Of a DNA stretch of 64,000 bases, positions 2,828 through 64,000 are shown in pieces. The stretch is from contig NZ_JAXIVS010000006.1 in NCBI RefSeq assembly GCF_034259325.1, forward strand, positions 310,001 through 374,000, read 5' to 3'. The stretch comes from Hyalangium ruber (GTDB lineage: Bacteria; Myxococcota; Myxococcia; Myxococcales; Myxococcaceae). The notes beneath the pieces were generated by a model, which was not told where the DNA came from, did not search any database, and saw only the letters and a program-made list of their open reading frames with translations. A program made the translations under genes and the position numbers. Every line of letters starts with the position of its first letter. The stretch's first letter is position 1.

Positions 2828-2871
2828 CGGGGGAGCGGGAGAACGCCGGGGTGTTTGCCCTCAAGGCAGGG

Positions 2872-3363
2872 ATGCTTGTTTGTGTGGCTTCTCGTGCTGA
2901 GTCAGACGGGACTTTGAACGAAGCCGCGCAGACAGTGTTGCCCCTGGAAGAAAGTGTCTTGATGGAGTGGAACGGGGTGACGTTGTCCCTGAACTACAAA
3001 TACGACATCAGCGTGATGCTGGAGGACATTGTCGAACTGGTCCTCGCGGTCGAAAAGACGGGGACAGGCTCATACCAGGTGGACTGGCCTTCATCGGGGT
3101 TCCCGTTCCGGTGGACGGTGAAATGGAACGAGTCCGAAGTGGATGTGCGCGCTGACTCACGTGATGAACCAGGAGCGGTGAATCTCACCGGACGTGAACG
3201 GGTTCGTGTGGAGAGAGGCTCGTTTGTGGGGGCCTGGAAAGCGCTCCTCCGCGCCGTTCTGTCTTGCCTTGAAGGCGCGGGTTACACCAGCCAGCAAGTT
3301 CATGGGTTGGCCCGATTGAGGACGGCTGCGATTGGTGGCTCATGGCCAACGGCAACCGGGTAA
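2872..3363 (+). CDS. Small hypothetical protein upstream of toxin locus
   Basis: A 163-residue protein lying 44 bp after the kinase fusion and 126 bp before the lipoprotein toxin. I chose the ATG at 2872; an in-frame ATG at 2962 (MEWNGVTLSLNYKYD) is an equally good or better start, because conserved-looking alternating beta-strand sequence begins there. It is acidic, has no signal peptide or membrane helix, and has Trp-rich strands (WPSSGFPFRW, WNESEVDV). Size and position would fit an orphan immunity-type protein of the neighbouring toxin locus, but I recognise no family and this is inference from context only. Confidence 0.55.
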   Translation: MLVCVASRAESDGTLNEAAQTVLPLEESVLMEWNGVTLSLNYKYDISVMLEDIVELVLAVEKTGTGSYQVDWPSSGFPFRWTVKWNESEVDVRADSRDEPGAVNLTGRERVRVERGSFVGAWKALLRAVLSCLEGAGYTSQQVHGLARLRTAAIGGSWPTATG

Positions 3364-3489
3364 GCGGCCAGAGTGCAGCAGAGATTCGATGGGTTGTGGC
3401 GGTCGGGACGCGGATGGGACCCAGAGCATCATCCTCACGGGGATGACGTTCCCGTAGCCTGACTCCCTTCCTGATCTGGAGGGAGTTAC

Positions 3490-4842
3490 ATGCCAGTGCA
3501 TCTTGGCGTTACGGTCCTGTTCTTGGTCCTGTCCACCGCGTGCAGTACCTCGCGCCTGGTACGCCTCGACACAGGCCATGGCGAGCCCCTCCTTCTCGTC
3601 TCTCGCGCGGACGAGGCCGAACGGGTCGAACTCGAGGAGGACGAGTTCACCAAGGCCATCGCGAAGGAAGCCAGGCAGTGGAGGCTCCTGGCCAATCCTG
3701 AGATGGCCGCTCGAGAGATGTTCGACGTCCCTCCGCGTAGCGGTTGGTACGGCTACACAAAGCGCCAGGGAGTCGTTCCCTTGCGCGAACAGATTCCTGC
3801 TGCGCAATGGGCCCAGGTGGACGAGGCGGTAACTCAGGAGTACGTGCGGTTCTGCGAGGCTGCGGGCAAGCCTCGGGACTGCTTGCGGCTGTTGCTCAAC
3901 AGCCCGGTACTCAACGGGGATGGCCGATACGCCCTCGCCATGTCCTTCGCCATGGAGGAGGTGCTGCCCGAGATGATGAAAGCCTTCAAGGACATGGCTG
4001 ACCCCGAAGCGGTCAAAGCGGCCATTCTCTGGGCGATGACCATCTACGCCGTGATGTGGCTGGCGCCCGAGCCGGTATTTTCCAAGGGGCTGGCGACGGT
4101 CGTGACGGCCAGCTTTATCTGCTACGTCGGGGTGGACACGTTCTGGACGCTCATTCAGGGCTGGAGGCGACTGGTGGATGCAGCCGACCACGCCACCTCG
4201 TTCTCGGAGCTTCGTGCTGCTGGTGAGAGATACGGCAAGGTGATGGGGCAGAACGCGGCGCGAGCCTTCGCGCTGCTGCTGTCGGCGGCCATCGGCCAGA
4301 CTGCCTCCAGTCTCTCGGCCAAGATACCTACCCTCCCAGGTTCGGCGCAGGCGTCGGTGGTGGGCGCGGCGGAAGTGGGAGTCCGGCTGACAGCAGTGGC
4401 CCAGGTTGAAGCAGTGGCTGTATCCGCTGATGTGTTCACCATGGCCCTTCCCCCCAATGCTGTCGCCTCGACTGCGGAGGGCCTGCGCGGAGCTGTTGCC
4501 GCGCCGGTGGAAGGGGAAGGTCAGTGGCACCATATTGCCACTGACAAGTGGCTCGATGCCGCACACAGTGGTGGTCCGTGGACTCCCAAGTTCCAGAAGC
4601 TCTTTGACCGGGCTGGCATGTCGCTGAACGATTCAGCGAACAGGGTGCGTGTCATGGGCCACCAAGGGCCACACCCCGAGGAGTACCATCGGGAGGTTTT
4701 CCGGCGGTTGCGCGATGCGATGAAAGAGTGTCGCAGCATGCATCAATGCCGAGAGGCGCTGACCGTGGAACTCAAGAAACTGGCTCAGGAACTCTCCACC
4801 AAGGGCTCCTACCTCAACAAGCTGGTCACCCGGAGCGAGTGA
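3490..4842 (+). CDS. Sit-type lipoprotein polymorphic toxin with AHH nuclease domain
   Basis: A 450-residue lipoprotein: the signal peptide ends in VLSTAC with lipidation expected at Cys18. The middle (about 170-330) holds hydrophobic helices (AILWAMTIYAVMWLA, ALLLSAAIG). The C-terminal 110 residues look like an AHH/HNH-family nuclease: WHHIATDKW with His347-His348, then GHQGPHPEEYHREV with His391, His395 and His400. In Myxococcus, SitA lipoprotein toxins are passed to kin through TraA/TraB outer-membrane exchange and kill recipients that lack the partner immunity protein; the layout here (lipobox, hydrophobic middle, exchangeable nuclease tip) matches that. The likely immunity gene follows 16 bp downstream. 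A GGAGGG lies just before the start. Confidence 0.82.
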   Translation: MPVHLGVTVLFLVLSTACSTSRLVRLDTGHGEPLLLVSRADEAERVELEEDEFTKAIAKEARQWRLLANPEMAAREMFDVPPRSGWYGYTKRQGVVPLREQIPAAQWAQVDEAVTQEYVRFCEAAGKPRDCLRLLLNSPVLNGDGRYALAMSFAMEEVLPEMMKAFKDMADPEAVKAAILWAMTIYAVMWLAPEPVFSKGLATVVTASFICYVGVDTFWTLIQGWRRLVDAADHATSFSELRAAGERYGKVMGQNAARAFALLLSAAIGQTASSLSAKIPTLPGSAQASVVGAAEVGVRLTAVAQVEAVAVSADVFTMALPPNAVASTAEGLRGAVAAPVEGEGQWHHIATDKWLDAAHSGGPWTPKFQKLFDRAGMSLNDSANRVRVMGHQGPHPEEYHREVFRRLRDAMKECRSMHQCREALTVELKKLAQELSTKGSYLNKLVTRSE

Positions 4843-4858
4843 CATCAAGGAGTACTGG

Positions 4859-5428
4859 ATGCCCAAGCGGTACTTTGACCTTTTCGAGGATGTCCATGTG
4901 CCCGGGCGTTGGTATCTGGATGACCCCGTGGACGCCCAGGGGCGTGAGGTGGACCTGTGGCAATTCGAGAGGGGAGTGCCCGTGGATGTTGAGGGGCGTC
5001 TTCGGATTCCGATGGATCGCCCCGGCGAGCCACTGGACTTCAGTGTGACCCCTGTGGGCGGTGCCCCCGTTGTTCACGCAAGGGTGGCCTCACTCTTCAC
5101 GGGTCTTGCCCCTAAAGACGTGCAACTCGTCCCAGTGGAGGTTGAAGGCCAGGCCGAAGAGTACTTTGTCCTCAACGTCACCCGGGTCGTGAGGTGTATT
5201 GATGACAAAGCCTCCGCTGAGGTCCAGTACTGGAAGCCCGAGGACGGACGCCCGGAGAAGACGGGAAACTATCGAGCCGTCCATGGAATGCGCATCAACT
5301 CCTCAATGGTCGGTGACGCCAAGGTTTTCCGCCCTTGGGGATGGTTGGTGGTGCTCCTTGTCTCAGAGGAAATCAAAGCGGCACTGGAAGGCATCAGAGC
5401 CACAGGGGCGAAGTTCAAGGAGGTATAG
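4859..5428 (+). CDS. Imm11-family immunity protein (SitI-like)
   Basis: A 189-residue cytoplasmic protein with no signal peptide. It begins YFDLFEDVHVPGRWYLDDP and contains VDLWQFERG, VVHARVASLF, YFVLNVTRVVRCID and a C-terminal ATGAKFKEV, the pattern I know for myxobacterial Imm11/DUF1629-like immunity proteins. It follows the AHH-type toxin by 16 bp and is surely in the same operon. The expected role is to bind and neutralise the neighbouring nuclease in siblings that receive the toxin. Its last 14 bp overlap the convergent alpha/beta hydrolase gene. Confidence 0.82.
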   Translation: MPKRYFDLFEDVHVPGRWYLDDPVDAQGREVDLWQFERGVPVDVEGRLRIPMDRPGEPLDFSVTPVGGAPVVHARVASLFTGLAPKDVQLVPVEVEGQAEEYFVLNVTRVVRCIDDKASAEVQYWKPEDGRPEKTGNYRAVHGMRINSSMVGDAKVFRPWGWLVVLLVSEEIKAALEGIRATGAKFKEV

Positions 5429-6305
5429 AGGACGGTGGGTGCTGCCCTGGGGCATCATCAAGAAATGACTTGATGGCCGGGAGCACCACCTCCGGTCGTT
5501 CCAAGTGAGGACTGTGCCCAGCCACCACGCGCAGCAGGCGGACCTCGGCCAAGCGTTTGGCTGCCTCCACCGCGAGTGACACGGGCAGGGTGTCCTCCCG
5601 TTCTCCCCAGACGAGGAGCGCGGGCTGGCGCAGGGACGCGAGCTGCTCCCTCCGGTGGAACACCTCTCCCGCCAGCGGCACCAGCGTGTCGAACGCCTTC
5701 GATGCCCTCGGTCGCCCCCCAGGCACCGCCAGCAACTCGTACCCCAGCATCCCCAGCCGCTGCCCCAGCGGCGTCTCCGGCGGCGGCAACAGTCGGTGGA
5801 ACATCCCCGGCCCCAGGCTCCGGGCCACTCGCTCCGGCCCCGCCCGGAAGAACAGGCGCGCCCGGCGCGTCATCTCCGGCCCCAACCCCATCGAGTCAAT
5901 CAGCACCAGCCGTTCCACCGGCACCCGGCCCCGCAGCGCCAGCTCCACGGCGACCAGCCCTCCCAGCGAGTGGCCCACCACCGCCACCGGCCCTGGAGCC
6001 AGCACCTTCAGCAGTTCCTCCACCGGCTCGGTGAAGAAGCGCACCCCGTCCTCCGCCGTGCGCACCGGCCCCTCCGGCGCCGAGGACAGCCCGAATCCCG
6101 GCAGGTCCAACGCCAGCACTCGCCGCCCCCTCGCCAGCACCGTGAGGTAGGAGAACCACATCGGCGCCGCGTGCCCCCGCCCGTGCAACAGCACCACCGT
6201 GGGGCCTTCGCCCCCCTCCAGCGCCCGGAGCGTCCCTCCGCTGGGCAGCCAGTGCGAGCGTGGCGCCACCACCGGGGCCAGCTGCCCCAACAGGTGCGCC
6301 TCCAT
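5415..6305 (-). CDS. Alpha/beta hydrolase
   Basis: A 296-residue alpha/beta-hydrolase fold enzyme. The nucleophile elbow is VVGHSLGGLV, the oxyanion strand VVLLHGRGHAAPMWF, the acid lies in VWGEREDTLP and the catalytic His in VAGHSPHLERPE. It resembles the esterase/epoxide-hydrolase-like group; the substrate cannot be read from sequence. I start it at the ATG at 6303-6305 (MEAHLLGQLAP); the frame stays open to a GTG at 6431, but that extension is Pro/Arg-rich low complexity and lies toward the MoxR promoter. The stop overlaps the convergent immunity gene by 14 bp. Confidence 0.85.
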   Translation of the reverse strand: MEAHLLGQLAPVVAPRSHWLPSGGTLRALEGGEGPTVVLLHGRGHAAPMWFSYLTVLARGRRVLALDLPGFGLSSAPEGPVRTAEDGVRFFTEPVEELLKVLAPGPVAVVGHSLGGLVAVELALRGRVPVERLVLIDSMGLGPEMTRRARLFFRAGPERVARSLGPGMFHRLLPPPETPLGQRLGMLGYELLAVPGGRPRASKAFDTLVPLAGEVFHRREQLASLRQPALLVWGEREDTLPVSLAVEAAKRLAEVRLLRVVAGHSPHLERPEVVLPAIKSFLDDAPGQHPPSSIPP

Positions 6306-6529
6306 CGGCCCCGGAACCAGCGGCGTCACGCCCGGCCTACCCGAAAGGCCCTCGGGGGGAGGGGGAAACTCCGAGCGGCGGCCTTCCGGAAACACACGGG
6401 CATGAGGACTCCGGTGGGTGGGGGCCGACACCTTACCGGAATGCCAGGCCTTCTGCGGTGTTGAGCCGGATACCCGGAAAACCTACGCTGGCCGGCCATT
6501 TCCGCCCGTTTGCGCCTACTTGAGGGGAC

Positions 6530-7519
<990 letters not shown>

Positions 7520-47671: not shown

Positions 47672-48676
47672 TCACGCACTCGCGGAGAACCGACGCCGGT
47701 ACTCCGCGGGCGTGACTCCGAGCGAGCGCCGGAACACGCGGTGCAGCGTCTCCAGCGTGCCGAAGCCGACCTCGGTGGCGATCTCCTTCACCGTCCGCCG
47801 CGTCGCCTCCAGGGAGGACCGAGCCGCCTCCACGCGCAGCTTCTCGACGTACTTCGCGGGCGTCAGCCCGACCTGCTCGCGGAACGCGCGCGCGAAGTTG
47901 CGGGGGCTCATCGCCGCGCGCCGGGAGAGCGACTCCACCGTCAGGTCCTCCCGCAGGTGCTCCGGCAGCCACTCCTGCACCTCGCGGATGGGCGCCCTGT
48001 CGGCCCACTGCGAGGCGAGCTGCACGCTGAACTGGCTCTGGCCTCCGGGGCGGTGGCGGTACATCACCAGCCAGCGCGCCACGCCGCGGGCCACCTCTCG
48101 GCCGAGGTCCTCTTCCACCAGCGCGAGGGCGAGGTCCATTCCGCTCGTCACTCCCGCCGAGCTCCAGGTGCGGCCGTCCTGGACGAAGATCCGATCCGCG
48201 AGCACCTCACAGCAGGGAAATTGTCGTTGCAGGTCCTCGCTGGCGGCCCAGTGGGTCGTGGCGCGCTTGCCATCCAGCAGCCCTGCCCGGGCCAGCAGGA
48301 AGCTGCCCGTGCAGACGGAGGTCACGCGTCGGCTGCGTCCGGCCAGTCGGCGCAGGTGCGGCGAGAGCGCGGGTTCCGCGTCGGGTGACGTGGCCACCAG
48401 TCCACCGGGGACCACCAGCGTATCCACCGGCTCGCGCACCCGGTCCAGCCGCGTGGTGGCGTGGAGCATCATGCCCCCCATCGTCGGCACCGGGCCCTTG
48501 CGGAGGGCCGCGATCTCGACGCGGTAGCCCCGCTGGTTCGGCCCCACCAGGGAGGCGGCGGTGGTGAACACCGAGGCCGGGCCCGTGATGTCGAGGATCT
48601 GCACCTCCGGGTACGCCACGATCAGCACCAGTCGGTCCCGCCGGCTTCGCGTGGGTCTTCTCAAGCGCTCATTCAT
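47672..48676 (-). CDS. GlxA-family AraC/DJ-1 transcriptional regulator
   Basis: 334 residues. N-terminal DJ-1/PfpI-like domain (LVLIVAYPEVQILDITGPA, TSVCTGSFLLARAGLLDGK) followed by an AraC-type pair of helix-turn-helix motifs (VESLSRRAAMSPRNFARAFR, VKEIATEVGFGTLETLHRVF). Catalytic Cys is kept but the domain usually acts as a sensor. It is divergent from the DJ-1 protein gene (114 bp), which it probably regulates. Start ATG at 48674-48676. Confidence 0.92.
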   Translation of the reverse strand: MNERLRRPTRSRRDRLVLIVAYPEVQILDITGPASVFTTAASLVGPNQRGYRVEIAALRKGPVPTMGGMMLHATTRLDRVREPVDTLVVPGGLVATSPDAEPALSPHLRRLAGRSRRVTSVCTGSFLLARAGLLDGKRATTHWAASEDLQRQFPCCEVLADRIFVQDGRTWSSAGVTSGMDLALALVEEDLGREVARGVARWLVMYRHRPGGQSQFSVQLASQWADRAPIREVQEWLPEHLREDLTVESLSRRAAMSPRNFARAFREQVGLTPAKYVEKLRVEAARSSLEATRRTVKEIATEVGFGTLETLHRVFRRSLGVTPAEYRRRFSASA

Positions 48677-48790
48677 GTCAGGACCCGACCTAGCCCGGGT
48701 TGGCGGAAATCGTCAAATCAATGGCAGTCCTGCCAGCGCCGCTCGCGCGTAGGGTGTCATCCGCAGCCCCCCTTCGTCGGAGGACACGCC

Positions 48791-49426
48791 ATGGACATTG
48801 CCTTCCTGCTCTACGAGAACATGACCTCGCTGGACTTCATTGGCCCGTACCAGGTCTTCACGCTGGTCCCGGGAGCGCGCATCCACCTGGTCGCCGCCGA
48901 GCCGGGGCCGCTGCGGACGGACGCGGGCGTACGGATGCACGCGGACCGGCGGCTGGAGGAAGTACCCCGCGCCGACATCGTCGTCGTCCCCGGCAGCTCG
49001 GATCCTTCCAAGACGATGGGAGATGAGCGGGTGCTCGCGTGGCTGCGGGAGATGGACAGGTCCACGAAGTGGACGACATCCGTGTGTACCGGCGCGCTCA
49101 TCCTGGGCGCGGCGGGCCTGCTCCAGGGCAAGCGCGCCACCACGCACTGGACGGCCACCGAGATGCTCCGGCAGTTCGGCGCCACGCCCGTGGCCGAGCG
49201 AGTCGTGTTCGACGGAAAGCTGGTGATCGCCGCCGGAGTGTCCGCGGGCATCGACATGGCGTTGACGCTGGTGGCGCGGGAGTTCGGCGAGCTGGTGTCT
49301 CAGTCCATCCAGCTCGGCATCGAGTACGACCCCGCGCCTCCCTTCGCCACCGGCTCGCTGCGCACCGCCTCGCCCGCCCTCATCGAGGCGTCCAAGGCCT
49401 TGCTCCAGGCGAGCCTTCAGCGCTGA
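48791..49426 (+). CDS. DJ-1/PfpI family protein (isonitrile-hydratase-like)
   Basis: 211 residues: IAFLLYENMTSLDFIGPYQV, ADIVVVPGSSDPSKTMG and catalytic-type Cys in TTSVCTGALILGAAGLLQG, followed by THWTATEM. Close in pattern to isonitrile hydratases and ThiJ-like hydratases. It ends directly where the 336-bp repeat begins. Its divergent neighbour is the GlxA-type regulator. Confidence 0.88.
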   Translation: MDIAFLLYENMTSLDFIGPYQVFTLVPGARIHLVAAEPGPLRTDAGVRMHADRRLEEVPRADIVVVPGSSDPSKTMGDERVLAWLREMDRSTKWTTSVCTGALILGAAGLLQGKRATTHWTATEMLRQFGATPVAERVVFDGKLVIAAGVSAGIDMALTLVAREFGELVSQSIQLGIEYDPAPPFATGSLRTASPALIEASKALLQASLQR

Positions 49427-49762
49427 GCACGCTCAGGGGCCGGCGTCCGTGGCAGGCACGCCCGCGTCCATGCCTTCGGGCATGGCGCCGGTCATGTCCA
49501 GGGTGGTGCCCTCCGGGGTCTCCTCGGTGGCCTCGGTCTCTCCGTTGGCCACCTCGCCCCCCGCGCCAATCACTCCGCCGGTGACGGGGGCGCCTCCCTC
49601 CTCGGGAGTGAACTCCAACTGCTCGATGAACGCCTGGCCCGGCAGTCGGAAGTCCATGCCGGTGACGCGCGGCCGGTCTCGCAGCTCATAGAGCTGCTGC
49701 GCCACCGAGCCCGCCTGGATGCGCTCGTTCGAGAAGATGACGTACACCTTCACCGTGCCTTC
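49427..49762. repeat. Direct repeat, left copy (336 bp)
   Basis: Matches 53237-53572 over 336 bp with 2 mismatches (G/C at 49490 versus 53300, G/A at 49661 versus 53471). Alignment stops on the left at 49427 (after the DJ-1 stop) and on the right after TC at 49762. It holds the 3' part of the minus-strand lipoprotein gene only. Confidence 0.97.
49433..49762 (-). pseudogene. 3' fragment of the lipoprotein gene, displaced by insertion
   Basis: The last about 110 codons of the 201-residue protein at 53243-53848, without its signal peptide and first 92 residues. A frame remains open (a GTG near 49753 could start a 106-residue peptide), but the signal and promoter are lost and AT-rich foreign sequence replaces the 5' half. 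It is a remnant left at the original gene position. Confidence 0.9.
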
Positions 49763-49781
49763 TATATATGTAGGAGAATGT

Positions 49782-51245
49782 TCAACGTATAGGCTTAATT
49801 CCTCCTTTGCGCTTCAAGCCAAATCCGACACGATAAACGTCTGGCATGTTAATACGCCCATCGGGCATTTGCTCGAATACGCCGAGTTCGAGCAAGTCTT
49901 CACGCACTCCTGCAAAGCCACGATCAAGCCTCTTGGGGCGAATATCGCGATGCCGCTGAAGTTCTGAGATGACATCTGCTTCTTTCCACCGCCGGTACAC
50001 GTCAGTGAAGTCACAAGGAATGACCAAGTCCCTGAGTGGCTTCATTGCTATACCAATCCACTTGTGATCTTCCTGGATCTCCTTGACGCGAATTTTGGAG
50101 GCTTCTTGGACTCCAAGTTTGATAGCTTCGTAGAAGATGGGAACGTCCTTGTTAGAATTGGTATCGCTTAATGCTGCTGTGCGAATGGCCGATAGAAAAC
50201 TTCGTGGGCTGACTTTTTTATGTGCGTCAGCGAGATGGTTGGGAAGCCAAGTGTAGGCTGCCCCGCGCCTCTGATCTTTACCCATGTAGGGACTTGCAAT
50301 GGCATGAAATACAGAACGCTGGGTTTCTTCATTCTTCCGAAGTTCGGAAGGAACCCGCCATACTCCCATGAATTCTCGCCATGTTAATCCAAAGATGTTG
50401 TTGCAACGGTCGCGAAACGCGCGGCCAAATCTTTGTCCATTAGAGAGATGTTGCCAGAGTAGCCCATAAAGATCGGCTCTTGGCCAGTCCAAGCTTACTC
50501 GGCTCGATAGGACTTTAGAGGCATCAGGAAAGCTACTGACCTCCGGATCGTCTAGCATGTCTGGACGGACAAATGCTTTGGCTCGTAGTGAATAGAACGA
50601 TCTGAAGTCGAGCGCAGCTTGTAATAGCCCGCGCAGAAGAGACTTGAGATCATTCCAAGTGCTTGCAGTGCGGTCCAGTGCATCAAATACGATGAGGTGC
50701 TGCTGCTTCTTATCGGCGAGTTTTCGATCAGCATCAAAAAGTGCATGAGAAGTTTCTTCGGGGTGCTGGAGAATCCACCCAACGCGCTCTTCCCATGCTT
50801 TCGTGTGTCTCAATAGGCCGTCTTCCTTGCCGGTGACGTGCCAAGTGATGATGGTGCGCCAAATAAGTTCTGGCTCGTAGATTCCAATAAGCTTCCGGAA
50901 AATTTCCTTGTCGGGGTAGTCGCGGGGATTCTTCCGAACACCAAAGCCAGGGCTAACGATGGTGTTGTCATCAAAAGGTGCTGTGCGAGTAGTCTGAGCA
51001 ACAACCAGTTTGCGGTAGTCGGGATCTTGTAGTGCTGCCCACCATACACTCTTCCCGGCACCACGTGTGCCTACTACAAGCATGCTGTCAGGATGTAGCG
51101 CACGGACATGAGCAGTAGGAACATAGAGAAAGCCATATTTGGGAGGCTCACCATGAGTGTCGGTTTCCTCAGGCAGGGTCTCCTGAATAAGCCTTCTGAT
51201 TTCTCTTGGAGGGAAAAAGTTGGTTTGGACCCTACGCTGAATCAT
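49782..51245 (-). CDS. STAND/KAP-like P-loop ATPase, third gene of island operon
   Basis: 487 residues. Walker A GTRGAGKS at 59-66, Walker B LIVFDALDR at 184-192, then a KAP/STAND-like stretch with RAKAFVRPDMLDD (about 221-233), DASKVLSSRVSLDW and LYGLLWQHLSNG. The C-terminal 200 residues end with a winged-helix-like segment (VREDLLELGVFEQMPDGRI). No membrane helix. It is the last gene of the operon; its start overlaps the ParA-like gene by 4 bp (ATGA). It could be the large sensor or effector-gating subunit. Confidence 0.82.
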   Translation of the reverse strand: MIQRRVQTNFFPPREIRRLIQETLPEETDTHGEPPKYGFLYVPTAHVRALHPDSMLVVGTRGAGKSVWWAALQDPDYRKLVVAQTTRTAPFDDNTIVSPGFGVRKNPRDYPDKEIFRKLIGIYEPELIWRTIITWHVTGKEDGLLRHTKAWEERVGWILQHPEETSHALFDADRKLADKKQQHLIVFDALDRTASTWNDLKSLLRGLLQAALDFRSFYSLRAKAFVRPDMLDDPEVSSFPDASKVLSSRVSLDWPRADLYGLLWQHLSNGQRFGRAFRDRCNNIFGLTWREFMGVWRVPSELRKNEETQRSVFHAIASPYMGKDQRRGAAYTWLPNHLADAHKKVSPRSFLSAIRTAALSDTNSNKDVPIFYEAIKLGVQEASKIRVKEIQEDHKWIGIAMKPLRDLVIPCDFTDVYRRWKEADVISELQRHRDIRPKRLDRGFAGVREDLLELGVFEQMPDGRINMPDVYRVGFGLKRKGGIKPIR

Positions 51246-52573
51246 GCTTCTTCTCCGAGAAGCAATCTGCTTGCCTCGGCTAAGAAGTGGCCAAAAGCTG
51301 CATCGACTTGTTCTTGGCCCAGCGTTTCTACTCCTCGAACTGGGTCAAATTCGAGGAATGCACGAGACCAGCGAATACGAATAGGGTGGTGCGGGGCATC
51401 TTCATCCCCAATATCGTAATTGAAGGCGTCGAGATCGGTTGCTTCCGCTTCTTCATAAAGAAAGTCCTGGAAGAGGCGATAAGCAGAAAGGCTGAATCGC
51501 TCTATGTATGCATCAGCCCCAATCTCTGGAATAAGAGCAGCAACCATTTTTAGGTTTTCCCGAATCGCTACAGCACGTTCAGGATGTGCTCTCCACTTTT
51601 GGAATAGCAGTTCGTAGTCAGCCCAGGTTTGGCGGCTGTTTCCTGCGAAGAGTAGACACAGTGCGCCGAGTCGAGTAATGGCGGCTGCCGCGATGTCGTG
51701 CATCCCGGCTCTGCTGTCAATAATGGTTACGTCGGGCTTGTATGTATCCTCTGCTTGAGAGACGAATCGCTCTATGCGATCTCCAAACTCTAGCATTCGT
51801 TTCTCGGTTTGGATTGGCATGTAGGCGCGAGATAGTTTTGCGAGGTAGTCGTAACTGGCTCGGGCACGCCCTCCTGCTGGGACAACGAGTACTTCGCCTT
51901 GAGTTCCTTCGGCGAGCGTGCTTCTTGCGACCATGTCTTGGAACAGAAGCCGGTCTGATTGCCCCACCGCATCCTCAACTAGCCAGTCAATGACGCCGAA
52001 GTCGGGATGGGATTCATGTGGCAACAAAGAGGATCCAACTCCTGGCGACTCCAAGTCTAGATCTATGACGAGAACACGCCTGTCTTTCTGCGCTAGGTGT
52101 CGTGCCCACACAGCTGTGGCAGTTGAGCGGCCGACTCCTCCCTTGATACCGAACATGGTTGCTCGGTGCGTCTGCGCAGGAGTTGCCGTACTGGGCTGAC
52201 GCAGCCAGTCTGAGCCGATAACCTGACGTTCAACAAGATGGATATAGGTAGGCTCAGTGCTCAGCAGAAGGTTGTCAGGGGAGTCGAAAAGGGATTTCGG
52301 ATCAATAAGATTCGATGCAAGCAGGAGGTCTGTCTCTGGATCTGGGGCAAACGCACCAAGCTCTGTGCCCAATGCTTGGAGAAGCTTCTTGATAGTGTCT
52401 TCTGGCGGTGCTGCATATGGAGGTCTGTCGTCAAGTGCTAGGTGAATGCGACCATAGAGATCGCGGATCAGCACTATTCGTGAATTCGGCAGTTCGGTGC
52501 GACGGATGATTGCCACCGCAAGGTTGAGTGCTTGATCAAAGCGAACGGCATGCTTGGTTGGTGTGGCGTTCAC
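51242..52573 (-). CDS. ParA/MinD-like ATPase with KGGVGR P-loop
   Basis: 443 residues. An N-terminal region of about 140 residues of unknown fold is followed by a ParA/MinD-type ATPase. The deviant P-loop reads KGGVGRST at 144-151, where the usual KGGxGK has Lys at position 149; here it is Arg. DLDLESPGVGSSLL (171-184) is the A' motif and DVTIIDSRAGMHD (281-293) the Walker B. This matches the KGGVGR-motif variant ATPases. It overlaps the genes on both sides by 4 bp. Confidence 0.87.
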   Translation of the reverse strand: MNATPTKHAVRFDQALNLAVAIIRRTELPNSRIVLIRDLYGRIHLALDDRPPYAAPPEDTIKKLLQALGTELGAFAPDPETDLLLASNLIDPKSLFDSPDNLLLSTEPTYIHLVERQVIGSDWLRQPSTATPAQTHRATMFGIKGGVGRSTATAVWARHLAQKDRRVLVIDLDLESPGVGSSLLPHESHPDFGVIDWLVEDAVGQSDRLLFQDMVARSTLAEGTQGEVLVVPAGGRARASYDYLAKLSRAYMPIQTEKRMLEFGDRIERFVSQAEDTYKPDVTIIDSRAGMHDIAAAAITRLGALCLLFAGNSRQTWADYELLFQKWRAHPERAVAIRENLKMVAALIPEIGADAYIERFSLSAYRLFQDFLYEEAEATDLDAFNYDIGDEDAPHHPIRIRWSRAFLEFDPVRGVETLGQEQVDAAFGHFLAEASRLLLGEEA

Positions 52574-52989
52574 TTGAGAATCCCGTCTTGGATGGCCAGT
52601 TGGAAAACTTCTTTGGCTTTAAAAGCCCCTGCGCGATGAGCTTGAACTGTTGCTGCCGTAAAGTGCTCATCACCGAAATATCGCTGGATGACGTGCCAGT
52701 CTTTAAAAGGATTGATGCTGCCCAACTTGGCGGCGTATCTAGCCCCATGGGGGCCTTGGGCAAATATGCGGAAATTAGACCATAGCGTGTTGATGTGTTT
52801 TTGATGGTCTGCGTTGCTCAGATCACCGTCGCTATTGGTCGGTGCGCCGAGAGCGATCATAACGGCCTTAAGCGCGCACTCTGCTGAGATGCCGAAAAGA
52901 TGGTCTGCATTGGCTAGTCGTTTGGCTCGGTCTAAACTGTCTGCGTCGGTCCAATGACGATCAAGTGCTTTTCGAAAATTGATAGCCAT
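52570..52989 (-). CDS. Small HEPN-like protein, first gene of island operon
   Basis: 139 residues, all-helical. A start like HEPN proteins (RHWTDADSLDRAKRLANADHL, AECALKAVMIAL), and near the C-terminus an RYFGDEH stretch that fits the RX4-6H ribonuclease motif (Arg107 approximately, five residues, His). HEPN proteins with this motif are RNases or tRNA-modifying toxins in many defence and toxin systems. Ribosome site AAAGG lies about 8 bases before ATG 52987-52989. The stop overlaps the ATPase start (ATGA). Confidence 0.7.
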   Translation of the reverse strand: MAINFRKALDRHWTDADSLDRAKRLANADHLFGISAECALKAVMIALGAPTNSDGDLSNADHQKHINTLWSNFRIFAQGPHGARYAAKLGSINPFKDWHVIQRYFGDEHFTAATVQAHRAGAFKAKEVFQLAIQDGILK

Positions 52990-53236
52990 GTGCTGCCTTT
53001 GCAGATTGCGCGAAGAAGCTTCTTCCTGCCGAATATGGGTGCATTTGGGTCCGCCATGCGAGCGAAAATGCTAACCGGAATGAAACTATTGCTACTTTCT
53101 AGTGGGTCATGTTGGCCTGTGTGAAGTAGAAAAATGAAGCCCGATGGCGCTTACTCAAGAGTGGAGAAAGCGCCTACGCAAGAAGCGACCTTAGCCCTGT
53201 AGTGCAGTTCAGGTTAGTGGAAGCCGAGAATAGGCT
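52990..53236. other. 247-bp upstream region of the island operon
   Basis: No gene is supported. It should contain the leftward promoter of the HEPN-ATPase operon. It is AT-rich next to the flanks. A perfect 14-bp palindrome GAAGAAGCTTCTTC occurs at 53012-53025, 23 bp upstream of the start codon. A weak -10-like TAGCAT (minus strand) is present near 53070; no good -35 was found. Confidence 0.55.
53012..53025. promoter_or_regulatory. 14-bp perfect palindrome, possible operator
   Basis: GAAGAAGCTTCTTC reads identically on both strands and lies 23 bp upstream of the first gene of the island operon, within the likely 5' leader or near the start site. Position suits an autorepressor or RNA hairpin; no partner protein is known. 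Confidence 0.45.
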
Positions 53237-53572
53237 GCACGCTCAGGGGCCGGCGTCCGTGGCAGGCACGCCCGCGTCCATGCCTTCGGGCATGGCGCCC
53301 GTCATGTCCAGGGTGGTGCCCTCCGGGGTCTCCTCGGTGGCCTCGGTCTCTCCGTTGGCCACCTCGCCCCCCGCGCCAATCACTCCGCCGGTGACGGGGG
53401 CGCCTCCCTCCTCGGGAGTGAACTCCAACTGCTCGATGAACGCCTGGCCCGGCAGTCGGAAGTCCATGCCAGTGACGCGCGGCCGGTCTCGCAGCTCATA
53501 GAGCTGCTGCGCCACCGAGCCCGCCTGGATGCGCTCGTTCGAGAAGATGACGTACACCTTCACCGTGCCTTC
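53237..53572. repeat. Direct repeat, right copy (336 bp)
   Basis: Partner of 49427-49762. It is continuous with the 5' part of the lipoprotein gene (53573-53848), so this copy completes a full-length gene. Alignment to the left copy ends at GCAC 53237 on one side and TC 53572 on the other. Confidence 0.97.
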
Positions 53573-53848
53573 CTGCACCGGCACGCGGAAGCTCGTGTTG
53601 GCCACGGGCCGGCCCGCGTCGCATTTGATGGACCGGTTCTCCCGAGTCATCGTCAGCTGCCGGATGATGCCCTTCTGCGACACCGTGTAGAGCAGGCAGT
53701 AGGGCAGCTGTCCCTCGCTGGGGACGACCTCCATCGTGGAGCCGCTGACCTTGCGTACCTGCGCCCGACGTGGCGCCTCGTCCTTGTCTCCCTTGGTACA
53801 GCCCGCTCCCAGCGCCAGCACCGCCACGGCCCATGGCCACCGCGTCAT
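53243..53848 (-). CDS. Lipoprotein of unknown function, host gene of the insertion
   Basis: 201 residues. Lipoprotein signal (VAVLALGAGC, Cys17). Beta-rich middle (VKVYVIFSNERIQAGSVAQQ, MDFRLPGQAFIEQLEF) and an acidic Gly/Thr-rich C-terminus. The last 106 residues lie in the duplicated repeat and are coded by the copy joined to the element. The gene is full length. Function unknown; the insertion spared it. Confidence 0.85.
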   Translation of the reverse strand: MTRWPWAVAVLALGAGCTKGDKDEAPRRAQVRKVSGSTMEVVPSEGQLPYCLLYTVSQKGIIRQLTMTRENRSIKCDAGRPVANTSFRVPVQEGTVKVYVIFSNERIQAGSVAQQLYELRDRPRVTGMDFRLPGQAFIEQLEFTPEEGGAPVTGGVIGAGGEVANGETEATEETPEGTTLDMTGAMPEGMDAGVPATDAGP

Positions 53849-57394: not shown

Positions 57395-60300
57395 TCAGGC
57401 CGCCTTCGCCCGACGCCGACGGTGCGCGTACCGCGCCAGGGCGAGCAGGCCGAAGTAGATGCTGGCATCCGCACCGGAGGTGGCGCCGCAGCCGCAGCCG
57501 CTGTCGCCGCCGCCGTCGCCATCACCGTCGCCATCGCCGTCGCCGTCGCCGTCACCGTTGGTCTGCGTGGTGACGCTCACCGCGGCGGAGGTGGCCGTGT
57601 TGCCCGCGCCATCGGTGATGATGGCGGTGATGGTGTGCGCCGAGCCGGGGGCAACCTTCGTGCTGTCCCAGCTGACCGTCAGCGGCGACTGGGTGCCGCT
57701 GCCGATCTCCGTGCCGTCCACGAGGATGGCGATCTTCACCAGCGTGGTGCCGGAGGCCACCGCGCCCGCGGCGGTGATGCTCACCGTCCCGGAGACAGTG
57801 TTGCCGTTGACCGGGCTGACCACCGCCACCGTCGGCTGAGCGAACGCCGAGACGTTGGTCTCCGCCGAGCCCGTAACGGTCGCGTTGGCCGCGTCCGTCA
57901 GGGTGATGCTCTTCTGGCCCTGCGTCTTGAACGTCACCGCGAAGCCCTGGAGCCGGCCCTCCGCGAACGTCGCGGTAGGCTCGAAGGTCGCCGCCGAGTC
58001 CGAGCTCGTCACATTGACCGTGCCGGTGTAGGGCGAGGCCAGGTTGCCGTAGCCGTCGAAGGCCTCGGCCGAGAGCGTCGTCTCCTGACCCGCGGACACG
58101 CTCTCCGGCAGCACCACCGCGAAGAGGGTGGCCGGGCCCGGCGTCACCGCGAACGCCGCGCTCGTCGCACCCGCGGCGCCCTGGATGCTCGCCGCCAGCG
58201 TGTAGCCATTGCCCGCCTTGCGCAGGGTCAGGCCGGTGAACGTCGCCACGCCGTTGACCGAGGCGGCCGTGGTGGTGCCCTGCAGCGTGCCGTTCGCCGG
58301 GTTCGTGGCAAGCACCAGCGTCACGTCACCCGTGCCGGTGGGGATGCGCACGCCCAGGGAGTCCTGCAGCTCCACTTCGATGGTGGGCAGCGACTCGCTG
58401 GCCTGGACGCTGGTGGGCAGGGCGCGGAAGGCCAGCCGAGCCACCGGGCCCTGGGCGATGTCGAACGCCGTGCTCGTCGCCGAGGTGAGCGCGCCCGCGC
58501 TGGCCTGGAGCGTGTAGCCCACGCCCGCGGGGCTGACGCTCAGGTCCGCGAAGGAGGCGATGCCACCGACCGCCGCCGCCGTGGTGGTACCCGAGAGCGT
58601 ACCGTTGGAGGGGTTGTTGCCCAGGGCGAGCGTGATGGCGTTCGTGGCGTTGGTGACGAGGTTGCCGAAGGCATCCTCCACCGCGACCTGGATCGCCGGG
58701 GTAATCGTCGTGCCCTGCTGAGCGGTGGACGGCTGGACTCGGAAGGCCAGCGCCGTCGCGGCGGCAGGAGAGACGTCGAACGCGTCGCTGGTGGCATCCG
58801 TCAGCCCGTCCGTGTGAGCCGTCAGCCGGTAGCCCACCGCCGCGCGGGCGATGGACAGGTCGGTGAAGGTCGCCACGCCGTTGACGGCGGCCACCGTGGT
58901 GGTGCCGGCCAGCGCGCCACCCAGGCTCTGCAGAGACAGGGTGATGCTGGCGGTGGAGCTCGTCCGGTTGCCGTTGGCGTCGCGGATCTCCACGGAGACG
59001 GTGCCCAGGCTGGCGCCCGCCGTGGTGGAGGTGGGCTGCTGCGAGAAGGCCAGCTGGGTGGGAGCACCCGTGCTGACGTCGAACGCAGCGCTGGTCGCGC
59101 CCTGGAGCGTGCCGGAGGTCGCGGTCAGCGTGTAGCCCACGCCTGTGTGGCTGATGCTCAGGTTGGCGAAGGAGGCGATGCCGCCGACCGCCGCCACCGT
59201 CGTCGTGCCCGAGAGCGTGCCGTTGGAGGGGTTGTTGCCCAGGGCGAGCGTGATGGTGTTCGTGGCGTTGGTGACGAGGTTACCGAAGGCATCCTCCACC
59301 GCGACCTGGATCGCCGGGGTGATGGTCGTGCCCTGCTGAGCGGTGGACGGCTGGACCCGGAAGGCCAGCGCCGACGCGGCGGCAGGAGAGACGTCGAACG
59401 CGTCACTGGTGGCATCCGTCAGCCCGTTCGTGTGAGCCGTCAGCCGGTAGCCCACCGCCGCGCGGGCGATGGACAGGTCGGTGAAGGTCGCCACACCGTC
59501 GACGGCGGCCACCGTGGTGGTGCCGGCCAGCGCGCCGCTCTGCAGAGACAGGGTGATGCTGGCGGTGGAGCCCGTCCGGTCGCCGTTGGCGTCGCGGATC
59601 TCCACGGAGACGGTGCCCAGGCTGGCGCCCGCCGTGGTGGAGGTAGGCTGCTGCGAGAAGGCCAGCTGGGTGGCGGCACCCGTGCGGACGTTGAACGCAG
59701 CGCTGGTCGCGCCCTGGAGCGTGCCGGAGGTCGCGGCCAGCGTGTAGCCCGTGCCAGCGCGGCTGACGCTCAGGTTGGTGAAGGTGGCCACGCCACTGAC
59801 GGCGGCCACCGTGGTGGTGCCGCCCAGCGTGGCTCCCGTCGGGTTGGCGCCGAGGGCCAGGGTGATGCTGTTCGTGGCGGTCGTGACCGTGTTGCCCTGG
59901 GCATCCAGGACGGTCACCTTGACCGCCGGAGAGATGTTCGTGCCCGCGGCGGCCTCGCTCGGCTGGACGGTGAAGGACAGCCGCGCCGGAGCACCCGCGC
60001 CGACGTTGAAGCTGGAGCTGGTCGCGCTCAGCAGATCGGTCGCGCTCAGCACCAGGGTGTAGCCGGTGCCCACGCGATCGATCGACAGATCCGCGAAGTC
60101 AGCCACGCCGTTCACCGCGTTGACGGTGGTGGTGCCACTCAGCGTGGCGCCGCTCGGGTTGTTGCCGAACGCCACCGACACCGCCGTGGTGGCCCCCGTC
60201 ACCGTGTTCCCGCCCTGGTCGACGATGGTGGCCTGGAGGGACGGGGTGATGGTGCCGCCAGCCGAGGTGTTGGTCGGCTGCCGGGTGATGGTCACGCGGT

Positions 60301-63300
60301 AGGGAGGACCCGCGACGATGTTGAACGCGTTGCTGACCACCGCGGTGAGCGTGCCCGACGTGCTCCTCAGCGTGTAGCCCGTGCCGGGACGGTTGATCGA
60401 CAGGTTGCTGAAGGTGGCCACACCGGCGACGGCCGCCACCGTGGTGGTGCCCGTCAGCGTGCCGCCCGAGGGGTTGGTGCCCAGCGCCATGACGACGTTG
60501 GACGTGGAGGTCGTCTGGTTGCCGAACCGGTCCTGGATGGCCACTCGCACCGCGGGGGCGAGGGGCGTGCCTGCCGTGCCGTTGGCGGGCTGGGTGAGGA
60601 TGGCCAGCCTGTTGGCCGCGGCCGGGTTGATCTGGAACGCCGAGCTGGTGGCGCCCGTGAGGCCCGTGGAGCTGGCGGTCAGGGTGTAACCCGCGCTGGT
60701 CTTGTCGAGGGACAGGTTGGTGAAGCTGGCCACACCGTTGACGGCGGCCACCGTGGTGGTGCCGGACAGCGTGCTGCCACCCGGGTTGTTGCCCAGGGCG
60801 ACGGTGATGCTGTTGGTGCCCGTCGTCACCGGGTTGCCAAAGGCGTCCACCAGACCCACGCGCACGGCCGGGGTGAGGGAGGCGCCCGCGACGGCGGTAG
60901 CGGGGGGCTGCACGGTGAAGGTGAGGCTGGCGGCGGGGCCCGCGGTGACCGTGGTGCTGGCGCTCGCGTTCATGCTCGCGTCCGTGGTGTCCGTCGCGGT
61001 GACCGACTGCGCGCCCAGGGTGCGGAAGGTGATGGGCACGTTGTTCGCCACACCCGCCGTGAACGTCGTGCTGGGAGGCAGCGTGGCCTGCGCGTCCGTG
61101 CTGGTGAACGTCGCGGTGCCGTTGTAGCTGGTCGCCGTCGCGCCGATGGCGTCCACCGCCGTGACGGTGAAGGTGACCGGCGAGCCGGCAGCCGCCGAGG
61201 CGGGCAGCCCCGTGACGCGGTAGGCGACGGCCGGGCCGGGCGGAGGCGTCTGCGTGGTGCAGCTGGCGAACGAGTCCGCGGTGATGCGGACGTCGTCCAC
61301 GTAGAAGCCTTCCACGACGTCGCTGCTGTCGGTGTGGATGCGGAACCCGAACCACACCTTCTGGCCGGCCAGGGCACCCAGGTTGACGGTGACGGGCTTC
61401 AGCGAGCCGTTGGCGCCCAGGTTCGCGCTGGTCCAGATGCGCGTGGTGGCGCTGCTGACCAGCGTGTTGTCGTAGCCGCCCGACGAGATGTACGGCTGCG
61501 TCGTCGAGACCACATCGCCCACGTTGGTCCAAGGACCGGTGGCGCTCGTGGTGCTGTAGACCAGCCAGGCACCGTCGTAGCGGGGCTCGATGTTGTACCA
61601 GACGTTGAACGTCATCTGCGGGCCGATGGTGGAGGCCGGCAGGGTGAAGCCGTTGATGGCGGAGGACACCGAGCCGTTACCGCCCAGCGAGAGGACGAGC
61701 TGCTGGCTGCTGGGGTAGGTGCCGCCGCAGGTGGTGTTGGCCGCGCCGAAGCGGTACGACTTGTTGGGCGACTGGTAGTGGCAGCCGGTGACGATGTTCA
61801 GCGTGTTCGCGTTGCCCGCCTGCGCCGTGGGGATCCAGTACGCGGCGGCGTCCGCCGGCCGGTTGGCGTCCAGGTCATCGAAGTAATTCAGGCCCGGCGT
61901 GACCGCGCCGGTGGCCCGCGAGGAACGCTGGACGGTGTTCGACTCCTGGAGGGTGGCGTTGCTCGTCTCGGTGGCGCGGACCACGTAGTAGTACGCGGCA
62001 CCCGAGGTCAGGTTCAGGTCATCCGAGAAGCTGGTGCCCGTCACGCCCGTGGCGATGCGGTTGCTCGCCGACGGGGTGAAGCCCGGGGCGGTGCTCCGGT
62101 AGATGGAGTAGCTCAGGGTGCCCGCGCAGCTCGGGGTGGCCGCGGACCAGGCCAGGTTGTTGGCGCAGGTGGAGGCCTGGGAGTTGCTGGCGGTGGTGAG
62201 GCCCGCGAAGGTGGGCGCCAGCGTACACGTGCCGGAGGTCGCCGCGGAAACCTCGGTGGACGGCGCCGACTCGGCGCAGTCCACGGCGCGCACCACGTAG
62301 TAGTACGTCGTGATGCCAGACACGCCGCTGTTCACGAACGGCGGGGCCGCCGCCGAGCCCACGCGCTCGTACGGACCGCCCGGGGTGATGGCGCGGTAGA
62401 TGTTGTACGAGGGGGCGCCGGTGGGCGTCCAGCTCACGTCGATGCGGTTGTCGCCATTGGCCGCGGCGGTGATGCCGGTGGGCGCCGTGGGCGCCGACGC
62501 GCAGCTGTTGTAGGCGACGAGCGCGAAGTCCTGGTCGAGCGCGGTGCCGCTGTTCGGCACGCCGTCCGAGTTGATGTTGGTGGCCGTCACCGTGACGGTG
62601 TACGCACCCTCGGCGCCCGCGGGCAGGAAGACGCTCTCCACGTTGTTGGCCGCGTCCGCCGAGCCGCCGGTGACGGAGTTGGCGCCGGTGAAGACGTTGC
62701 CGCGGTAGGTGTTCGCGCCCAGGGTGACCGTGAGGTCCAGGTTGTTGCGCCAGGCGTTGCCCGAGGTGGAGCCGGGCGCGTCCGTCCACGCCAGCGTCAC
62801 GCGGAAGGGCTTGGTCGAGTCGGACACCACGCCGCTGAAGGTCCGCGTCTGGCCGGTGGCGGTGAAGAGGCTGGCCGGGCTCTGGTCATCCAGCAGGCGC
62901 CGGGCGCCGTCGAACGCCATGCCCAGGTCCATCAGGCCCATGCCCTGGTTGTTGGAGAAGAGCGAGTCGTTGGCCCCCACGCCCGTCATGTAGCGGGTGG
63001 AGTTCATCAGGTAGGCCTTCGTCATCGCCGCGCTGGGCGGAGTGAAGCCCTGGTTGATGAAGTACTGGCGCACGAGCGCCGCGCCACCAGCCACCGCCGG
63101 GGTGGAGTGGCTGGTACCGGAGGAGGCCGTGAACCACTGCTGGCCGACCGGGTAGAAGTTGTTGTTGGGACCGCCGCACACGCCGTCGGCGTTGAAGCAC
63201 GAGAGCGCCTGCCCGGTGGGGTTGCCCGGGGTGGGGCTGCGCTGGCCGGCTGCCTGGGCCACGCCGCCGGAGACGTGCGTGCCGGGCGCCATGATGTCCG

Positions 63301-64000
63301 GCTTCTTGCGACCGTCGGAGGCGGGGCCGCGGCTGGAGAAGGCGACGATGTCGTAGAGGCTGTTGGCCTCGGTGTCCGTGGTGTTGCAGAGGTCCGGCGC
63401 GCCGAAGGCCCGCACGTTCTCGGAGGCGCCCACGGTGATGATGTTCTTCGCCGTGCCGGGAGTGCCCACCGTGTTCGCGCTCGCGCCGTCGTTGCCCGCC
63501 GCGAAGAGGATGACCATCTCCTGGTTGCCCGCGTTGGGCACCGCGGAGCCCGTGGGCTGCGCGTCACGCACCAGCGCGTCGTAGCGCTGCGCGTCGGCGT
63601 CATAGAGGTTGGAGGAGGCGCCCCAGCTGTTGGAGCTGATGCGCATGCTGTCGCGGTACGCGCGCGACTGCAGGTCCTCGTAGTCCGGGTCGGTGAAGCT
63701 GGCGGGGTCGAACACCACCGAGGAGCCCACCTTCACGAAGGGCGCCACGCCCAGGCCGTGGGTGAAGCCCGACTCGTCCGTGAAGGGCGCGCCGGTCTGG
63801 TTGGCATAGCCCGCGACGATGTGGGCGTTCAGGGTGCCGTGGCCATCGCAGCCCTGGATGGTGCTGCCGGAGTTGGCCGTACCCTCGAGGCGGGCGTAGG
63901 CCACGCGGCTGGTGCCGGTGACGTCGCCGCCCACGTAGAGGCCGAAGTGGTTGGGCGCCAGCGTGGCGTTGTCCAGGCCGCTGTCGCTCACGTCCACGCC
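57395..64000 (-). CDS. Giant secreted subtilase with Fn3/Ig-like repeats and MYXO-CTERM, N-terminus beyond window edge
   Basis: More than 2200 residues; the 5' end is past the edge. Subtilisin triad: Asp in MDVSDSGLD (near the visible start), His in GCDGHGTLNAHI, Ser in GTSHSTPAVAGGAALV. Then a P-domain-like module, two Fn3-like domains with Cys, an immune-inhibitor-A-like jellyroll (WIPTAQAGNANTLN, WFGFRIHTDSSDVVEGFY), about ten Ig-like repeats of about 100 residues, a GDGDGD linker, and the MYXO-CTERM tail (SGCGCGATS, a helix, RRRRAKAA). It is exported and probably processed and retained at the outer membrane by a myxosortase-type pathway. One terminator hairpin follows the stop. Confidence 0.92.
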   Translation of the reverse strand, partial: GVDVSDSGLDNATLAPNHFGLYVGGDVTGTSRVAYARLEGTANSGSTIQGCDGHGTLNAHIVAGYANQTGAPFTDESGFTHGLGVAPFVKVGSSVVFDPASFTDPDYEDLQSRAYRDSMRISSNSWGASSNLYDADAQRYDALVRDAQPTGSAVPNAGNQEMVILFAAGNDGASANTVGTPGTAKNIITVGASENVRAFGAPDLCNTTDTEANSLYDIVAFSSRGPASDGRKKPDIMAPGTHVSGGVAQAAGQRSPTPGNPTGQALSCFNADGVCGGPNNNFYPVGQQWFTASSGTSHSTPAVAGGAALVRQYFINQGFTPPSAAMTKAYLMNSTRYMTGVGANDSLFSNNQGMGLMDLGMAFDGARRLLDDQSPASLFTATGQTRTFSGVVSDSTKPFRVTLAWTDAPGSTSGNAWRNNLDLTVTLGANTYRGNVFTGANSVTGGSADAANNVESVFLPAGAEGAYTVTVTATNINSDGVPNSGTALDQDFALVAYNSCASAPTAPTGITAAANGDNRIDVSWTPTGAPSYNIYRAITPGGPYERVGSAAAPPFVNSGVSGITTYYYVVRAVDCAESAPSTEVSAATSGTCTLAPTFAGLTTASNSQASTCANNLAWSAATPSCAGTLSYSIYRSTAPGFTPSASNRIATGVTGTSFSDDLNLTSGAAYYYVVRATETSNATLQESNTVQRSSRATGAVTPGLNYFDDLDANRPADAAAYWIPTAQAGNANTLNIVTGCHYQSPNKSYRFGAANTTCGGTYPSSQQLVLSLGGNGSVSSAINGFTLPASTIGPQMTFNVWYNIEPRYDGAWLVYSTTSATGPWTNVGDVVSTTQPYISSGGYDNTLVSSATTRIWTSANLGANGSLKPVTVNLGALAGQKVWFGFRIHTDSSDVVEGFYVDDVRITADSFASCTTQTPPPGPAVAYRVTGLPASAAAGSPVTFTVTAVDAIGATATSYNGTATFTSTDAQATLPPSTTFTAGVANNVPITFRTLGAQSVTATDTTDASMNASASTTVTAGPAASLTFTVQPPATAVAGASLTPAVRVGLVDAFGNPVTTGTNSITVALGNNPGGSTLSGTTTVAAVNGVASFTNLSLDKTSAGYTLTASSTGLTGATSSAFQINPAAANRLAILTQPANGTAGTPLAPAVRVAIQDRFGNQTTSTSNVVMALGTNPSGGTLTGTTTVAAVAGVATFSNLSINRPGTGYTLRSTSGTLTAVVSNAFNIVAGPPYRVTITRQPTNTSAGGTITPSLQATIVDQGGNTVTGATTAVSVAFGNNPSGATLSGTTTVNAVNGVADFADLSIDRVGTGYTLVLSATDLLSATSSSFNVGAGAPARLSFTVQPSEAAAGTNISPAVKVTVLDAQGNTVTTATNSITLALGANPTGATLGGTTTVAAVSGVATFTNLSVSRAGTGYTLAATSGTLQGATSAAFNVRTGAATQLAFSQQPTSTTAGASLGTVSVEIRDANGDRTGSTASITLSLQSGALAGTTTVAAVDGVATFTDLSIARAAVGYRLTAHTNGLTDATSDAFDVSPAAASALAFRVQPSTAQQGTTITPAIQVAVEDAFGNLVTNATNTITLALGNNPSNGTLSGTTTVAAVGGIASFANLSISHTGVGYTLTATSGTLQGATSAAFDVSTGAPTQLAFSQQPTSTTAGASLGTVSVEIRDANGNRTSSTASITLSLQSLGGALAGTTTVAAVNGVATFTDLSIARAAVGYRLTAHTDGLTDATSDAFDVSPAAATALAFRVQPSTAQQGTTITPAIQVAVEDAFGNLVTNATNAITLALGNNPSNGTLSGTTTAAAVGGIASFADLSVSPAGVGYTLQASAGALTSATSTAFDIAQGPVARLAFRALPTSVQASESLPTIEVELQDSLGVRIPTGTGDVTLVLATNPANGTLQGTTTAASVNGVATFTGLTLRKAGNGYTLAASIQGAAGATSAAFAVTPGPATLFAVVLPESVSAGQETTLSAEAFDGYGNLASPYTGTVNVTSSDSAATFEPTATFAEGRLQGFAVTFKTQGQKSITLTDAANATVTGSAETNVSAFAQPTVAVVSPVNGNTVSGTVSITAAGAVASGTTLVKIAILVDGTEIGSGTQSPLTVSWDSTKVAPGSAHTITAIITDGAGNTATSAAVSVTTQTNGDGDGDGDGDGDGDGGGDSGCGCGATSGADASIYFGLLALARYAHRRRRAKAA
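58548..59777 (-). repeat. Tandem duplication of two Ig-like repeats (about 618 bp period)
   Basis: 58548-59165 and 59166-59777 line up over about 612-618 bases with roughly 95% identity by eye and a single in-frame 6-base indel (LGGAL versus GAL). Each unit is one domain pair (QLAFSQQPTSTTAGASLG type, then LAFRVQPSTAQQGTTITP type). Recent duplication within the Ig array. Confidence 0.88.

Follow-up and report, generated by a model that had tools for sequence, protein, structure and literature searches.

In the 64,000-nucleotide stretch of the Hyalangium ruber genome analysed here (the window), a host gene's 3' end is present as two long direct copies, with a three-gene PDC-M28 cassette between them. 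The account that we favour, with moderate confidence and from the inserted state alone, is that this A-B-C cassette, whose composition is foreign to its surroundings, was acquired horizontally and inserted at the end of the gene with a long target duplication. The layout recurs with repeats of different length, and at a different target each time, around related cassettes.

A PDC-M28 cassette between direct repeats

The features of the locus, with their positions in the window, are as follows.

48791-49426, forward strand: DJ-1/PfpI-family gene beyond the orphan repeat copy, its stop codon abutting copy A
49427-49762, reverse strand: copy A of the 336-bp repeat, an orphaned 3' end of the host gene that differs from copy B at two positions
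49763-53236, reverse strand: 3,474-bp insert flanked by the two copies, with a GC content of about 50%, compared with about 70% on either side
49782-51245, reverse strand: PDC-M28 C, 487 aa, a P-loop ATPase with similarity to the Sll1717 family, scoring below the model cut-off
51242-52573, reverse strand: PDC-M28 B, 443 aa, KGGVGR-motif variant AAA (MinD/ParA-like) ATPase, above the NCBIfam cut-off
52570-52989, reverse strand: PDC-M28 A, 139 aa, HEPN-like, with a relative at another locus (L051, below) that passes the Pfam HEPN cut-off
53237-53572, reverse strand: copy B of the 336-bp repeat, made up of the 3' end of the intact gene and a further 6 bp, and adjoining the insert
53243-53848, reverse strand: intact host gene, small putative lipoprotein of 201 aa, its last 110 codons inside copy B

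Three co-directional genes occupy 3,208 bp of the insert, which holds nothing but PDC-M28 A, B and C. They match the corresponding PADLOC profiles nearly end to end (E values of 1e-45, 1e-141 and 1e-173, respectively), so that homologues of all three components stand in one operon and in the order of the PADLOC system, whose models describe the genes and not their mode of insertion. The cassette most likely acts in anti-phage defence, combining a HEPN-like protein with two ATPases. This role is deduced from its status as a PADLOC candidate system and from its place inside BREX-2 loci, as A-B-C sets occur within BREX-2 gene sets on three plasmids from three bacterial groups (L146, L147 and L150), suggesting that the two are functionally connected. 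Among 10 aligned relatives of PDC-M28 A, R103 and Y104 are the only invariant residues in the region of a HEPN ribonuclease motif; as no R-x-H spacing is conserved, the motif was rejected and we do not argue for an RNase action of this protein. Signals in a promoter and terminator scan fell below the shuffled expectation, searching phages and viral contigs for PDC-M28 C led nowhere, a DNA search of E. coli gave no PDC-M28 match, and a literature search found no paper naming PDC-M28 or KGGVGR.

The repeat copies agree at 334 of 336 positions and consist of the 3' 330 nt of the gene plus 6 bp. Both mismatches noted in the initial annotation are synonymous: codon 126 reads ACC in the orphan and ACT in the intact copy, and codon 183 reads ACC and ACG, respectively. 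The same annotation was also right that the C-terminal part of the intact gene belongs to the copy joined to the insert, and it is only because the last 110 codons lie in copy B that the gene is whole. Chance can be rejected as the source of the repeat. A scan of 850 kb of the host genome (positions 1-590000 of contig C6 and 1-260000 of contig C1) for direct repeats of at least 30 bp and at least 88% identity, with starts at least 800 bp apart and within 30 kb, returned the 336-bp pair as the sole member of its class, and flanking repeats (90% identity, E 1e-8) were seen in 0 of 145 random placements of a 3.4-kb segment. Elsewhere in the window, an open frame of 2,200 aa (57395-63997), with a subtilisin-like start as judged by eye, contains nine related 262-nt repeats (58081-60826).

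The host gene and its orthologues

The product of the host gene aligns over its full length with orthologues (for example at 78% across residues 1-201) and has no family match in Pfam or NCBIfam; the lipoprotein label rests on an N-terminus resembling a lipid-attachment signal, in an atypical form. Matches occur in 78 of 96 genomes of the host family, most of which have a single copy; the nearest relatives compared, none of them a congener, are up to 86% identical at the repeat region. In other genera of the family the 3' end of the orthologue faces an iron alcohol dehydrogenase gene. Between these two genes the window has, at 47672-49426, a divergent pair made of an AraC-type regulator with a DJ-1 domain and the DJ-1/PfpI gene, which seems to have been inserted separately at the same position, since the genes on either side are adjacent in those genera.

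In a sister genus (g39), nine of 16 genomes have two matches to the gene, in tandem wherever both coordinates are listed; at loci L087-L090 and L094-L098 many genomes carry two full tandem copies. In one further genome (G095; loci L091 and L092) the orthologue is divided over two contig ends, with the break between residues 82 and 109, which would be compatible with an insertion and with a plain assembly gap alike. Apart from copy A and this split gene, no extra 3' fragment was present in the 96 family genomes, and neither the gene nor its end had another carrier among the phages, plasmids and viral contigs searched. A fixed docking piece of this gene, borne by the cassette, is not supported: these searches gave no other element with the same end, and other PDC-M28 cassettes come with the ends of different genes.

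Recurrence of the layout

We compared 15 other non-plasmid PDC-M28 loci, namely 13 of the 20 matches outside the window and two distant relatives of PDC-M28 C that came from a contig search, neither of them in the host's group. Three have flanking repeats, which together with the window gives four loci with repeats of 336, 213, 140 and 34 bp and a different target at each. At the first (L044) a 213-bp repeat of 94% identity leaves a whole ftsK gene on one side and a piece encoding the FtsK gamma domain on the other; its empty site could not be recovered from relatives, whose downstream genes are unconserved. At the second (L050) the repeat measures 140 bp (93%) and the gene behind it matched no identity. 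The third (L051) has a 34-bp repeat (94%) at the end of a proton-antiporter gene of the NADH:quinone oxidoreductase/Mrp family; its copies differ in the stop codon, TGA against TAA, and the insert contains, by eye, an excisionase-like helix-turn-helix reading frame beside the gene end. In the window, L044 and L051 the order and strand are the same, with the whole gene, the co-oriented cassette and the orphan gene end in succession, and the repeat stops 6-14 bp beyond the stop codon; thus all three cases with an identified gene are at the 3' end and co-directional with it. The other 12 chromosomal loci have no repeat at 90% identity and E 1e-8, and on plasmids none of the 12 loci examined, out of 20 matches, has one at these thresholds. 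Among these loci the flank on one side is short at L048 and L052 (less than 400 bp) and at L101 (less than 2.4 kb). Locus L149 has a 35-bp repeat (91%, E 6e-8) with one side inside an integrase gene.

The layout is also seen with other cargo. Among 20 GmrSD loci of the host family, chosen from a longer list, there is one clear case (L251), in which a 343-bp repeat of 98% identity surrounds a cassette of NsnA-like GmrSD and an AAA ATPase and covers the ends of two convergent genes, both of which remain whole. Two others in this sample are a weak case with 133 bp at 86% and pieces of an integrase-like gene (L241) and one with repeats of only 36-44 bp (L246). The control sample yielded a locus (L221, positions 2787-6692) in which two 253-bp pglX 5' ends, 93% identical, bracket a set comprising a methyltransferase, an NsnA-like GmrSD and a HEPN protein, next to a BREX-like kinase gene. 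Beside a PDC-M28 cassette at L045 (positions 2657-7104) there is a scar with non-defence cargo: a whole 4-hydroxyphenylpyruvate dioxygenase (HPPD) gene, a sulfur-metabolism gene set and a 73-bp orphan end (89%), in which none of eight codon differences is synonymous. Fifteen repeat pairs at L080-L099 lie away from defence cassettes, and among the 10 pairs listed all are at tandem copies of the 53243-53848 gene; a further repeat, at L155, is intergenic and has no defence cassette.

Mobility functions and known insertion systems

Profile searches of the three insert proteins found no integrase or transposase family, and the insert has no terminal inverted repeats above 7 bp. Its ends share no 10-mer with those of the three other M28 inserts, among which two pairs each share one GC-rich 10-mer. 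An origin as a transposon or IS element was rejected, there being no inverted ends, no short target duplication and no transposase, as was a cassette-specific attachment sequence, given the missing common 10-mer. The 49763-53236 insert thus shows the lack of transposase, integrase and conserved ends that goes with long target duplication, and the M28 loci show the variable-length direct repeats, of the order of 100 bp, around a gene unit.

Such duplications are reported for restriction-modification genes, whose insertion is accompanied by target duplications that are long and variable in size, in the 100-bp range (PMC3874152 and PMC3031569); the underlying work is that of Nobusato et al. 2000 and Furuta et al. 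2010, as cited in PMC3031569, PMC3874152 and PMC3154945. The likeness lies in a defence-type unit without a recombinase, in variable repeats in the 100-bp range and in the sparing of the neighbouring genes. The differences are that the window carries a three-gene PDC-M28 cassette and a repeat of 336 bp, and that it is seen without a paired genome with the empty site. Restriction-modification cargo is absent from the window insert; L221 does carry a methyltransferase.

The second precedent is e14, described in PMC11148124 as a cryptic prophage with an integrase gene, intE, that lies in icd with a 165-bp duplication and 12 nucleotide exchanges. The two loci agree in that the 3' end of the gene is supplied by the insert-side copy while the old end is displaced, and in that the changes between copies are mostly silent or conservative. 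They differ in that the window insert measures 3.5 kb and has three cassette genes, and in that related cassettes use different genes. The likeness that the initial annotation drew to the docking of integrative elements therefore holds for the layout, with its whole gene, insert and orphan end, and not for the enzyme: the target gene is kept whole by the element-side end, and no integrase gene is present in the insert.

Origin of the duplication

Insertion with long target duplication would mean that incoming DNA became joined to the host chromosome at two sites some 0.3 kb from each other, whether by staggered joining, joining across sister strands or a single crossover of a circle. The stretch between the joining points would then come to lie on both sides of the insert, and no site-specific enzyme of the cassette would have acted. 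Insertions of this kind would persist since the genes next to them are left intact by the duplication, and the repeats could later allow excision or amplification through ordinary homologous recombination. In the literature consulted, this mechanism is itself unproven. It nevertheless fits the loci better than a model of the e14/icd type, because related cassettes stand at unrelated genes, no recombinase is present and whatever lies at the target is duplicated; the 5' end duplicated at L221 and the convergent pair at L251 make it the simpler explanation. Three observations weigh against it. At L044, nine of the 11 codons that differ do so synonymously, and states known from relatives occur in each copy; the placement of all three identified M28 genes is more orderly than random insertion needs; and in L251 and L044 the differences between copies are concentrated at that edge of the repeat which lies inside the gene.

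The synonymous bias at L044 and the orderly, co-directional 3'-end placement keep alive an origin of the e14/icd type, which we regard as possible but less probable. In that case a circular molecule with the cassette and a foreign version of the gene's 3' end would have recombined into the host gene and displaced the old end, either by a single homologous crossover or with the help of an integrase that was supplied in trans or has since disappeared. The architecture and the kind of divergence between the copies are as reported for e14 in icd (PMC11148124), and at L051 both the difference in stop codons and the excisionase-like frame near the gene end would agree with it. Against it stand the missing integrase, the use of another gene at every M28 site, the 5' end duplicated at L221 and the failure to find the host gene end in phages, plasmids, viral contigs or as an extra fragment in the family genomes.

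The relative age of the copies bears on both accounts. Comparison with orthologues, as proposed in the initial annotation, leaves one informative site of two, as codon 183 falls outside their alignable region. At codon 126 the third-base T of the insert-side ACT is in none of the 43 aligned rows and the ACC of the displaced copy is in ten, which fits copy A being older than copy B. This is a single site, and it would agree with a brought-in allele and with a later mutation alike. The copies at L044 resemble a pair of alleles that were both functional more than a single end that was duplicated; the orphan has a one-base insertion shared by no relative. At L251 it is the orphan, and not the intact copy, that appears derived at most sites polarised by relatives, which speaks against an e14/icd-type origin. 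Over the window, L044 and L251 the sequence evidence on copy age is thus mixed. The initial annotation is in sum confirmed in its observation and partly supported in its interpretation.

Far less probable is a tandem duplication of the gene followed by an unrelated insertion that deleted the 5' part of the second copy. The pairs of matches in nine of the 16 g39 genomes lend it some substance, but it needs two events with one insertion end falling exactly at the duplication joint, and it does not explain why ftsK and other genes show this layout too. An assembly or contamination artefact is very improbable even for a draft genome of 43 contigs with a contamination estimate of 4.52%, as two bases distinguish the copies, the insert lies well within the bounds of a contig of 596 kb and assemblies made independently, one of them a single contig (G089), show the layout again.

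Implications

We read this distinctive locus as extending the reported pattern of restriction-modification insertion to PDC-M28 and GmrSD-type defence cassettes; no title that came up in our literature search describes flanking repeats or a target duplication around cassettes of this type, though this does not prove that none exists. How small recombinase-free defence systems enter chromosomes is poorly explained, and the recurrent scar of gene, cassette and orphan end offers a mark in the sequence that allows such insertions to be located, dated and set against their donors. Whether the gene now ends in its own or in a borrowed end, either answer would be informative. The two models could also be combined: once repeats exist, host recombination could excise the unit and return it to this gene in another, related strain, so that a foreign end would be brought along. 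There is also a broader and more speculative idea, which we think rather unlikely as it stands: small defence cassettes may be recombinase-free mobile units that use 30-350 bp of a host-gene end as a homology arm, leave and re-enter by host homologous recombination and at each insertion rebuild the target gene with the incoming end, the old end being left behind the cassette. If it were true, defence genes would spread at the ends of housekeeping genes with no mobility enzyme, and with the gene unharmed.
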